Below, in pieces: positions 40,910 through 42,923 of a stretch of DNA of 64,000 nucleotides (the first letter of the stretch is position 1; each line of letters begins with the position of its first letter). Below the pieces are notes generated by a model, which was not told where the DNA came from, searched no databases, and saw only the letters and a program-made list of their open reading frames with translations. The DNA lies in contig CP051243.1 in NCBI GenBank assembly GCA_017795025.1, positions 2,442,897 through 2,506,896 on the forward strand. The letters run 5' to 3'. The position numbers were made by a program, and so were the translations under genes. This DNA comes from Flavobacteriales bacterium. Its GTDB lineage: Bacteria > Bacteroidota > Bacteroidia > Flavobacteriales > Schleiferiaceae.

Positions 40910-40917
40910 TAGCTTCG
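40910..40917 (+). promoter_or_regulatory. Promoter-like box of the ECF sigma gene
   Basis: TAGCTTCG, a TAnnTTCG variant of the -7 box also seen before two other genes in the window, ends 16 nt before the TTG start of the sigma factor gene. Confidence 0.4.
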
Positions 40918-40933
40918 CTGGCAAAACTCCCCC

Positions 40934-41494
40934 TTGGCGAAGTCGGACTTAGAAATATGGATTGACCAATACAGCGACGAATTGTTGCGCTGGGCCGAAT
41001 ATCGTTTGGGTGATCATGATCTCGCTCAGGACTTAGTGCAAGAAACTTTCTTAGCGGCCTACGAAAAATTCGACACCTTTAAGGGCGATAGCTCCCCTAA
41101 AACCTGGCTCTCCCGGATTTTACGCAATAAGATTACCGACTATTTCCGCTCGGCTTATTACAAACGTAATGTCTTCGAAAAGGAGCAAGGTGAGGATGAA
41201 GGGGAAAGTCAATTTTTTACCCCCAAAGGCCATTGGCACACCGAGGATTTTGAAATGGGTTGGGAGTCTCAAAATCAATTAATGGATCGAGAAGACTTTC
41301 AAGTATTGTTTAAACGGTGTATGGATAATCTTCCCCAAACTTGGCGGGATATTCTCGCGGCTAAATTTTTTGCCAAAGAAAGTGGAGAAGCGATAAGTCA
41401 GGAGTTTGAGATTAGTACGTCCAACTATTGGCAAATTATTCATCGCGCCAAGCTGTCGCTTAAAAATTGTCTTGAAGTTTATTGGAAATCATGA
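40934..41494 (+). CDS. ECF sigma factor (TIGR02943-like family)
   Basis: 186 residues starting at TTG; no ATG is available before region 2. Region 2 is clear (RWAEYRLGDHDLAQDLVQETFLAAYEKF, then TWLSRILRNKITDYFR). A middle linker rich in W/E/D follows, then region 4 (DNLPQTWRDILAAKFF ... EISTSNYWQIIHRAKLSLKNCL). The SNYW-HRAKL signature is that of a Bacteroidota sigma-70 subgroup. It directs RNA polymerase to a special regulon. Its stop overlaps the anti-sigma ATG by 4 bp. Confidence 0.93.
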   Translation: MAKSDLEIWIDQYSDELLRWAEYRLGDHDLAQDLVQETFLAAYEKFDTFKGDSSPKTWLSRILRNKITDYFRSAYYKRNVFEKEQGEDEGESQFFTPKGHWHTEDFEMGWESQNQLMDREDFQVLFKRCMDNLPQTWRDILAAKFFAKESGEAISQEFEISTSNYWQIIHRAKLSLKNCLEVYWKS

Positions 41495-41754
41495 AAGCTT
41501 TTCCCTCCATACTCATCACTTGCAAAGAAGCAGGTACCTATATTCAGCAAAAAGAGCAGGGCAATCTTAATGCCTGGGGGCGCTTTCAATTGAAGCTACA
41601 CCTATGGTACTGTAAGTTCTGTCGTGCCTATGCCAAGCAAAGTGCCAAAATTAATCAGTTCCTAGAGCGGCATTTCCAAGAAAAGACAAGCCCTCAGAAT
41701 GAAGCCTTCAAACAAAAGTTAAAGGCGGAAATTCAAAAAAAAGCAAATCAATAG
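41491..41754 (+). CDS. ZAS-type zinc anti-sigma factor (zf-HC2)
   Basis: 87 residues, soluble, from the ATG at 41491 that overlaps the sigma stop (ATGA). It contains ITCKEAGTYI with Cys11 and LKLHLWYCKFCRAY with His37, Cys41, Cys44: the HxxxCxxC zinc anti-sigma motif plus the upstream cysteine. By my count C11, H37, C41 and C44 have the same numbers as the key residues of Streptomyces RsrA, a redox-sensing anti-sigma factor. The C-terminus is helical and basic with no membrane segment. It should hold the adjacent sigma factor inactive. Confidence 0.85.
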   Translation: MKAFPSILITCKEAGTYIQQKEQGNLNAWGRFQLKLHLWYCKFCRAYAKQSAKINQFLERHFQEKTSPQNEAFKQKLKAEIQKKANQ

Positions 41755-41780
41755 TGTAAGGGATAAAAGGCCCTCTCGTC

Positions 41781-41810
41781 CATAGTACGAATTAATAACA
41801 CTGTACTATG
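41781..41810. promoter_or_regulatory. 8-bp inverted repeat overlapping the start codon of the Trx-like gene
   Basis: CATAGTAC (41781-41788) and GTACTATG (41803-41810) are perfect inverted repeats with a 14-nt spacer. The right arm contains the ATG at 41808. It could be an operator, or an RNA hairpin that hides the start codon; a G-U pair extends the RNA stem to 9 bp. Confidence 0.6.
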
Positions 41811-42218
41811 TCACACCTATTCCTTAGTTTATTTCTCCTCCTTAGCGCGCCGGCCGCAATGGAAAACCCGGCCCCACTGCCCGCATCCCAAAGTTTAATT
41901 GTAGTGGTGAATACCGCCGATTGGTGCCCTGTTTGTCAAAAAAATGGTCCCCGCGTCGAAAAAGAGCTCCTAAGCGAGTTTATGAAAGATGATGCCTACA
42001 CGATTGTTATCAATAACCTCAGCACCGACGACACTAAGGCTATGGCTCAGGAAAAGTTAGCGGCTTTAGGATTAGCTACATTTAGCGAAGAGCATAAAGG
42101 AACGGGTAAGATTTACTTTATTCACCCCGAGAGCAAAGAAATCATTGAAGATATCAGTGTTCGAAAGAGCACCGAAAAAATTAGAGCTGCTTTTGAAGAA
42201 GCCCTAGCCACCCTATAA
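41808..42218 (+). CDS. Exported thioredoxin-fold protein (CPVC)
   Basis: 136 residues with a signal peptide (FLSLFLLLSAPAA) and a thioredoxin fold whose active site is ADWCPVCQKNGP (Cys40, Cys43). A helix KAMAQEKLAALGLA and strand KIYFIHPESKEIIEDI follow. The usual cis-Pro loop is not obvious. Probably a periplasmic thiol oxidoreductase. It lies 53 bp after the anti-sigma gene, and its start codon is part of an inverted repeat, so it may belong to the sigma factor's regulon. Confidence 0.78.
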   Translation: MSHLFLSLFLLLSAPAAMENPAPLPASQSLIVVVNTADWCPVCQKNGPRVEKELLSEFMKDDAYTIVINNLSTDDTKAMAQEKLAALGLATFSEEHKGTGKIYFIHPESKEIIEDISVRKSTEKIRAAFEEALATL

Positions 42219-42232
42219 ATGTGGGAAGGATG

Positions 42233-42280
42233 GAGTCGGGTACTTTTGGTTCTTCTAGGCCCGACTCTCTCCTCTTCCAT
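42233..42280 (+). terminator. Rho-independent terminator after the Trx-like gene
   Basis: GAGTCGGG (42233-42240) pairs with CCCGACTC (42260-42267); flanking GGAAGGA and TCCTCTTCC can extend the stem, and TTTTT follows at the end. The loop is 19 nt. Confidence 0.7.
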
Positions 42281-42314
42281 TTTTCTTAGCTTTTAAAACC
42301 TATTTCCCGCGCTT

Positions 42315-42923
42315 ATGAAAAGTATATTCCTCGGTTTAAGTCTCCTCCTCAGCACCGCTTACAATGCTCAATCCTTAGATAGTATCCATGGACTGCCCGT
42401 TGGCACCAAGGCCCCTCTTTACACCCTCCAAAACCTATCTGGAGATAAACTGGACCTTAAAGAACTTAATGCCCAAGGGCCACTTCTCTTGGTTTTTTAC
42501 CGTGGTCATTGGTGTCCTTATTGTAATCGTCACCTTTCGGAACTGCAGGAAATTGCCGACAGCCTAAATGAGCTCGGAGTAAGCCTTGTTGCCATCGCAC
42601 CCGAAAAACCGGAATACCTGGCCGAAATGAAAAATGAAACCGGTGCGAGCTTTACCTTTCTCTATGATGAATCTTATCGCATGATCAAGGCTTACGACCT
42701 GGCCTTTTTACCCTCTGAGGCTACGCGCTTGAAGTACAAAACCCTTTTAGGAGCGGACCTTAGTGAACTATCAGGCGACAGCCGAGAGTGGCTGCCTGTA
42801 CCTGCTACCTTTTTAATTGATAGTGAGGGCATTATCCGCTGGCGACATTTTAATCCCGATTATAAGGAGCGCTCCGAGCTTGCAGAAATATTGGAAGCTT
42901 TGGCCAAGCTTAACCTGAATTAA
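42315..42923 (+). CDS. Exported peroxiredoxin-like (AhpC/TSA) protein
   Basis: 202 residues with a signal peptide (LSLLLSTAYNAQS). The AhpC/TSA core is present: APLYTLQNLSGDKLDL, LLLVFYRGHWCPYCNRHLSEL (Cys67, Cys70), VAIAPEKPEYL, and the C-terminal VPATFLIDSEGIIRWRHFN. The CPYC site is that of the peroxiredoxin-like family rather than classical 2-Cys Prx. It probably reduces peroxides or disulfides in the periplasm. A terminator separates it from the Trx-like gene. Confidence 0.88.
   Translation: MKSIFLGLSLLLSTAYNAQSLDSIHGLPVGTKAPLYTLQNLSGDKLDLKELNAQGPLLLVFYRGHWCPYCNRHLSELQEIADSLNELGVSLVAIAPEKPEYLAEMKNETGASFTFLYDESYRMIKAYDLAFLPSEATRLKYKTLLGADLSELSGDSREWLPVPATFLIDSEGIIRWRHFNPDYKERSELAEILEALAKLNLN

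Follow-up and report, generated by a model that had tools for sequence, protein, structure and literature searches.

A stress sigma factor locus of the Neisseria sigmaE-MseR kind in a Flavobacteriales bacterium, with a promoter-like element conserved within the sigma-coding sequence

We analyzed a 64,000-nucleotide stretch of the genome of a Flavobacteriales bacterium of the Schleiferiaceae (contig CP051243.1, positions 2,442,897 to 2,506,896; the window), in which four consecutive genes encode an extracytoplasmic function (ECF) sigma factor, a zinc anti-sigma (ZAS) factor, a thioredoxin-fold protein, and an AhpC/TSA-fold protein. Judged by sequence, the switch is a close relative of a known one, the sigmaE-MseR pair of Neisseria, with its own cargo of neighboring genes and a strongly conserved promoter-like element in the sigma gene. 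This intragenic element (INT) and a second one directly after the anti-sigma gene (DN) match the Neisseria sigmaE promoter consensus. We infer that this sigma factor transcribes from both, that INT has a feedback role, and what the signal is. It is reasonably probable that the locus is a zinc anti-sigma switch responding to thiol-reactive stress, in which the sigma factor reads DN and INT and the response resets itself. We regard it as likely that, in much of the Bacteroidota, the helix-turn-helix-coding stretch of the sigma gene doubles as a promoter read by the same sigma factor and drives the anti-sigma gene as a shut-off timer, and that the element decayed where the promoter moved upstream of the sigma gene.

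RESULTS

The pair groups with Neisseria sigmaE-MseR

The best NCBIfam models were TIGR02943 for the sigma factor (150.2 bits; curated cutoff, 162.2) and NF052368 for the anti-sigma factor (45 bits; cutoff, 50). Relatives in the phylum mostly scored below the cutoffs too, with 13 of 395 genomes over that of TIGR02943 and 1 of 296 over that of NF052368. The N. gonorrhoeae pair reached 284 and 76.9 bits, respectively, and the gonococcal sigma factor was the best match of the window's sigma factor (P0002) in the plasmid collection (39%). The record that carries it (NZ_CP119142.1, 2.17 Mb; L126) resembles a chromosome misfiled as a plasmid. In a tree of 43 sigma factors, a branch with values of 100/99 parted 37 family members, including that of Neisseria, from six other ECF sigma factors of the window's own genome; these six paralogues were the only outgroup, and long branches were flagged. 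By best-matching models and tree, the pair groups with Neisseria sigmaE-MseR, although both proteins fall just short of the family cutoffs.

The preliminary description of the locus had compared the anti-sigma factor with RsrA of Streptomyces. Cys11, His37, Cys41, and Cys44 indeed lie at the positions claimed and carry the RsrA residue numbers, but their spacing is family-wide and also found in Neisseria MseR, whose Cys4, His30, Cys34, and Cys37 are reported to correspond exactly to these residues of RsrA with a shift of 7 (PMC2893595). Kinship to RsrA in particular did not hold up. The RsrA model, TIGR03988, gave 15.5 of the 62.5 bits required, and the conserved element, GTMAGG-N15-CGTC, is of the Neisseria sigmaE kind and differs from the SigR-type class, GGGAAT-16-GTTG (as quoted in PMC3489674). 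RsrA membership was rejected on this model score and promoter class. Cytoplasmic disulfide sensing as in RsrA, where a Cys11-Cys44 disulfide would expel zinc and free the sigma factor upon diamide treatment, would suit the four matching ligand positions and the fact that the protein's only three cysteines are all ligands. We nevertheless consider it unlikely, given the low RsrA score, the exported rather than cytoplasmic look of the cargo, and the reported lack of a diamide or peroxide response in MseR, which has the same ligand spacing (PMC2893595).

Both the ZAS motif and the solubility claimed earlier for the anti-sigma factor agree with our results. C11 and C41 occur in every one of 63 aligned relatives, H37 in 61, and C44 likewise in 61; a C-to-H distance of 26 is found in 62. 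Of 88 genomes from the bacterial family, 11 have an anti-sigma match, the window's own among them, and of 296 from the order, 60 have an NF052368 profile match (E ≤ 0.001); thus, the pair is more than a chance arrangement. Six of the seven own-genus genomes carry the anti-sigma gene, and one contig scan returned a single relative, a Flavobacteriales metagenome-assembled genome. AF2 modeled the protein as a bundle of helices (mean pLDDT, 86); the best VIA fold matches of this model were AlgU-MucA entries (Z 7.6 and 7.4) and the zinc form of RsiW (Z 7.1), with the next unrelated fold at 4.0; a ChrR entry matched weakly (Z 3.5; rmsd, 11.4). Foldseek gave RsiW a probability of 0.98 but an E value of 0.53 and returned no match at E ≤ 0.001. 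Sequence searches of the PDB, with the single protein and with a profile, found no anti-sigma factor, and RsrA was absent among the fold matches listed, which excludes nothing. The model assigns the protein the class-I anti-sigma domain (ASD) fold; the scores are modest for a helical protein, and the motif and gene position add support.

A conserved promoter-like element precedes the thioredoxin-fold gene

The Neisseria sigmaE promoter has been described as a -35 box GTMAGBWTT and a -10 box CGTCTAAH with a spacer of 12-13 (PMC2893595). Both INT and DN fit the Neisseria-type pattern GTMAGB, 15-16 nt, CGTC, and the N. gonorrhoeae record has GTCAGT-N15-CGTC 5' of the gonococcal operon. The bases between the anti-sigma and thioredoxin-fold genes (53 in the window) have mostly diverged among five own-genus genomes, and the DN core is kept in 5 of 5, that is, in all own-genus loci that carry the thioredoxin-fold gene.

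A first scan of 64 loci found the pattern after the anti-sigma gene in 27 (shuffle mean, 0.008, or about 0.01 loci) and gave nothing when the reverse strand of the flanks was read. Because four leading bases were demanded, the scan passed over the window and three own-genus loci. The wider comparison comprised 96 loci from 49 genera: 61 from searches of the order and family, 33 from a search of the phylum, the window, and one Neisseria locus. Left out of the counts were L113 and L114 (large anti-sigma factors with weak scores), L115 to L117 (no pair), and L075 (sigma gene cut by the open reading frame caller). DN was present in 39 of the 96 loci, from eight genera; 25 of the 39 belong to one genus, g24, which we take from its gene content to be Chryseobacterium-like. 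Recognized cargo lay nearby in 37 of the 39 loci with DN versus 16 of the 52 with neither DN nor an upstream promoter. The equivalent site in relatives precedes MsrAB, DoxX, YHS, or bufferin (copper-peptide) genes; in g24 it reads GTAAGG..CGTCTAA before the YHS type of cargo or GTCAGGATT..CGAC before the DUF417-MsrAB type.

Since a conserved sigmaE-type promoter precedes it, the thioredoxin-fold gene is probably a direct target of the sigma factor. Of the two downstream thiol genes proposed earlier as targets, this is the one for which the proposal gains support; the AhpC/TSA gene is perhaps on the DN transcript, although the strong hairpin that separates the two genes makes this uncertain. 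Matches with at most one mismatch in the own genome numbered 44 versus 66 for a reversed-pattern control, so that no regulon is visible beyond INT and DN. A larger regulon was rejected: the one further site common to most of the genus lies in a coding sequence, presumably TilS-like. The regulon looks tiny, since apart from conserved coding sequence we saw no further site that recurs in the own genus. The meningococcal sigmaE regulon is reported to be very small (PMC2893595).

The same promoter pattern is maintained inside the sigma gene

INT ends 69 bases 5' of the anti-sigma gene, in the part of the sigma factor (residues 126-175) to which PF08281 aligns at 21.6 bits, below its cutoff of 25.7. 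The strict pattern was found in 57 of the 96 loci, the one-base AAT variant of the -35 box was found in 15 more (72 in all), and 33 of the 49 genera have the element; in 5 loci there is only the -10 box, and 19 lack it.

The element falls partly on conserved residues, and at least 5 of 7 genomes of the own genus have the same pattern at the TilS-like coding site, two observations that speak for a coincidence of protein and codon constraint rather than a promoter. Codon usage argues otherwise. At codon 162, 85 loci have an NCN codon, and in 79 of them it is NCG, compared with 14.6 predicted from the codon usage of the individual loci; NCG is kept regardless of whether the codon specifies T, P, A, or S, as it does in most loci. 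When only the first locus of each genus was counted, 38 of 42 had NCG versus 7.1 expected (P = 2e-27; because the loci are related, P values here are only indicative). The next best of the 20 columns compared reached 29%, and the median was 14%. Drawing synonymous codons at local background usage for the same proteins (95 loci; L225 was also dropped, owing to a gap) gave 1.2 loci with the strict pattern and 1.7 with the variant included, versus the 57 and 72 observed.

In 35 of 36 loci, INT and DN also agree in their -10 variant; all 21 CGAC pairs are in g24, the other paralogue of which has 4 CGTC pairs. Agreement in the -35 box extends to 31 of the 36, and the 5 loci that differ are those of the own genus. 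Region 4 of a sigma factor reads the -35 box and is not known to contact the -10 box; a fit between protein and DNA would therefore not explain the shared -10 variant.

Eight loci have a promoter upstream of the sigma gene, and six of these lack INT: the -35 box is lost in all six and the CGTC box in four. Two of these four lost CGTC with the residues A-S kept (GCT TCA and GCC TCC), which speaks against mere coincidence, although the box persists in the other two of the six. Taken together, a mere coincidence of coding constraints appears quite improbable, and a promoter function of INT remains our preferred reading. Within 400 bases upstream of the sigma gene, no such promoter was found in the own genus, so that synthesis of the sigma factor is probably not autoactivated. 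Nothing INT-like was seen in the six other alignable ECF sigma genes of the own genome.

Cargo of related pairs

Counts of neighboring genes rely on BLAST against reference proteins and on a repeat pattern. Near the 96 loci we found MsrAB (25 loci), DUF417 (23), AhpC/TSA (12), DUF2063 (12), CG-repeat bufferin-like peptides (12), DUF692 (11), DoxX (9), and YHS (8). Thioredoxins of the P0003 type, the window's own, lie near 5 loci. The cargo of the own genus is thioredoxin-fold plus AhpC/TSA-fold; no cargo of the Neisseria type (DoxX, captophorin genes) was found beside the own-genus pair, MsrAB elsewhere in the genome not having been searched for.

Bufferins and captophorins are described as copper-binding modified peptides, and those of the bufferin type as chelating copper and aiding growth under copper stress (PMC12452194; PMC13097082). 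The locus might accordingly be a soft-metal switch in which Cu(I) or a like metal displaces the zinc, the thioredoxin- and AhpC-like proteins repair copper-driven disulfide damage, and the wider family controls copper-trapping peptides. Peptide-type neighbors of related pairs (the CG-repeat, DUF692, and DUF2063 genes counted above) occur in the own bacterial family, across the phylum, and in Neisseria. None of the seven own-genus genomes has a DUF692 match, the sigma tree puts the window's pair in a different sub-clade from the bufferin-linked pairs of its family, and we noticed no copper response of a ZAS member in the parts of the literature consulted. We regard this version as possible but doubtful. 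The separate sub-clades also imply that no simple swap of cargo took place at one orthologous locus.

Four genomes of g24 (G092, G201, G146, and G299) hold two paralogous sigma/ZAS pairs each (L080/L081, L069/L082, L096/L097, and L108/L109). One paralogue precedes DUF417 and MsrAB and has CGAC promoters; the other precedes YHS, lipoprotein, and DoxX-like genes and has CGTC promoters. Another type of cargo, a small membrane-anchored or exported protein, was seen at L055 (genome G016), L095, and L216; at L055 and L095 it is followed by a gene that we take to be YceI-like, with AhpC/TSA nearby.

Organization of the locus

The window is part of a 3.44-Mb single-contig genome with 14 matches to sigma region 2. 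All four genes named in the preliminary description are present, and the 4-bp overlap of the sigma and anti-sigma genes was confirmed (Table 1). The start of the sigma gene had to be moved, as the earlier position, 40910, is an in-frame TAG stop; the TTG start now assigned is consistent with relatives.

Table 1. Genes and elements of the sigma/anti-sigma locus (window coordinates)
Feature	Position	Strand	Evidence or scope
ECF sigma factor gene, 186 aa, TTG start	40934..41494	+	TIGR02943 150.2 bits, PF04542 63.2 bits
INT, AGTCAGG-N15-CGTC inside sigma gene, codons 155-163, region-4.2 helix-turn-helix	41396..41421	+	96-locus comparison
ZAS anti-sigma factor gene, 87 aa (C11, H37, C41, C44)	41491..41754	+	ATGA overlap with sigma gene
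DN, TGTAAGG-N15-CGTC, directly after anti-sigma stop codon, 5' of thioredoxin-fold gene	41755..41780	+	Neisseria sigmaE consensus match
Thioredoxin-fold protein (P0003), probably exported, 136 aa, WCPVC	41808..42218	+	in 5/7 own-genus genomes
Conserved RNA hairpin between thiol genes, invariant 10-base loop TGGTTCTTCT (TTGGTTCTTCT at 42246-42256)	42221..42280	+	5 own-genus genomes
AhpC/TSA-fold (peroxiredoxin-like, WCPYC) protein (P0004), probably exported, 202 aa	42315..42923	+	AhpC-TSA 88.5 bits

That the last two proteins are exported and of thioredoxin fold was upheld in part. Both have the CxxC motif described earlier and a signal-like N-terminal stretch, the latter judged by eye rather than by a signal-peptide program. 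P0003 matches Pfam thioredoxin only weakly (19.8 bits; cutoff, 23.5), with a clear CPVC. P0004 scores far above the Pfam AhpC-TSA cutoff of 26 and is by this measure an AhpC/TSA-fold protein with putative peroxidase activity.

In the five-genome alignment of the hairpin, one row of which was entered by hand, both bases have changed in one or more sequences at 7 of the 12 predicted pairs, and 7 of the 12 are disrupted or gapped in one sequence. The genus shows no enrichment of the loop, and Rfam gave no match near a gathering score for the hairpin. It may act as a terminator or attenuator, or it may be a small RNA. An 8-base inverted repeat, CATAGTAC...GTACTATG (41781-41810), ends on the thioredoxin start codon and was not seen in four own-genus relatives. 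Scans for sigma-70-type promoters and for terminators gave no more matches than shuffled sequence.

DISCUSSION

We propose that the zinc-bound anti-sigma factor holds the sigma factor until the zinc site formed by Cys11, Cys41, and Cys44 is disturbed by a thiol-reactive stress. The likeliest agents are strong oxidants, for example HOCl, or soft metals, for example copper. The sigma factor would then be freed to read two near-identical promoters, with starts predicted from the Neisseria position about 17 nt 5' of the thioredoxin gene for DN and about 60 nt 5' of the anti-sigma gene for INT. DN would yield the thioredoxin-fold protein, perhaps together with the AhpC/TSA-fold one; INT would give a transcript with the anti-sigma gene as its first whole gene, which would refill the anti-sigma pool so that the response resets itself.

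Both the exported look of the cargo and the copper peptides found in relatives suggest a signal at the envelope, HOCl-like oxidants or copper; a diamide-type cytoplasmic stress is less likely. In Haemophilus, rpoE2 expression is reported to rise with HOCl and H2O2, and RpoE2 to control periplasmic repair enzymes (PMC7907618).

Several observations weigh against the proposed switch. INT and DN are putative promoters, and both proteins fall short of the curated cutoffs of their family models. INT is missing, wholly or but for its -10 box, from 24 of the 96 loci and is absent from the six proteobacterial comparators, Neisseria retaining only the -10 box. The six upstream-promoter loci without INT come from just two genera, and two of them retain the CGTC box. 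One locus, L062, combines a CGTC INT with a CGAC DN, and in the own genus the -35 boxes differ (INT, GTCAGG; DN, GTAAGG). Third-base conservation at INT is not striking among five own-genus sigma genes, so that the case for INT rests on the wide sample. Motif matches in the own genome were rarer than those of the reversed control, and the stable hairpin could end the DN transcript before the AhpC/TSA gene. Finally, MseR is reported not to respond to peroxide, diamide, or singlet oxygen in meningococci (PMC2893595).

The closest known system is sigmaE-MseR of Neisseria (NMB2144-NMB2145), with which the locus shares a homologous sigma factor, a ZAS protein with C-x25-H-x3-C-x2-C spacing, the promoter consensus, and a very small regulon (PMC2893595). 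Unlike here, the Neisseria promoter lies upstream of the whole operon, there is no INT, and the cargo consists of DoxX, captophorin-type genes, and MsrAB. By its description, RpoE2-HrsE of Haemophilus influenzae is similar, being closest to Neisseria SigE and having a cytoplasmic ZAS inhibitor, but it has MsrAB, a DMT transporter, and a DoxX cluster as cargo (PMC7907618). SigR-RsrA of Streptomyces shares the ZAS residue numbers, and thioredoxin is among the SigR targets (cited in PMC2893595); it differs in model score, promoter class, and the apparent export of the proteins encoded downstream here. Plasmid loci of Acinetobacter portensis and Burkholderia glumae likewise have a related sigma gene beside a thioredoxin-family gene and CcdA, in A. 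portensis with a peroxiredoxin-like gene and GTAAGG-N16-CGTC about 66 nt upstream of the thioredoxin gene. Their thioredoxins share only about 27% identity with P0003, along part of the protein, and INT is absent.

In the literature searched we noticed no anti-sigma promoter of the INT type for this sigma family. The general logic of an anti-sigma promoter inside a sigma gene has one known precedent, in Corynebacterium glutamicum, where the SigH-dependent promoter PrshA lies inside sigH, with starts 62 and 66 nt before rshA and a proposed role in shut-off (PMC3489674). Its promoter sequence differs from INT, and a family-wide overlap of coding and promoter sequence is not described in the part of that report consulted.

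For Bacteroidota, these results provide a precise rule, GTMAGG-N15-CGWC, by which the promoters of one stress sigma factor of this kind can be sought and tested. They would place MsrAB, DoxX, copper peptides, and exported thiol proteins under a single switch as its cargo. INT would be a clean case of one stretch of DNA under both coding and promoter selection, and it predicts a negative feedback that is built into the sigma gene itself.

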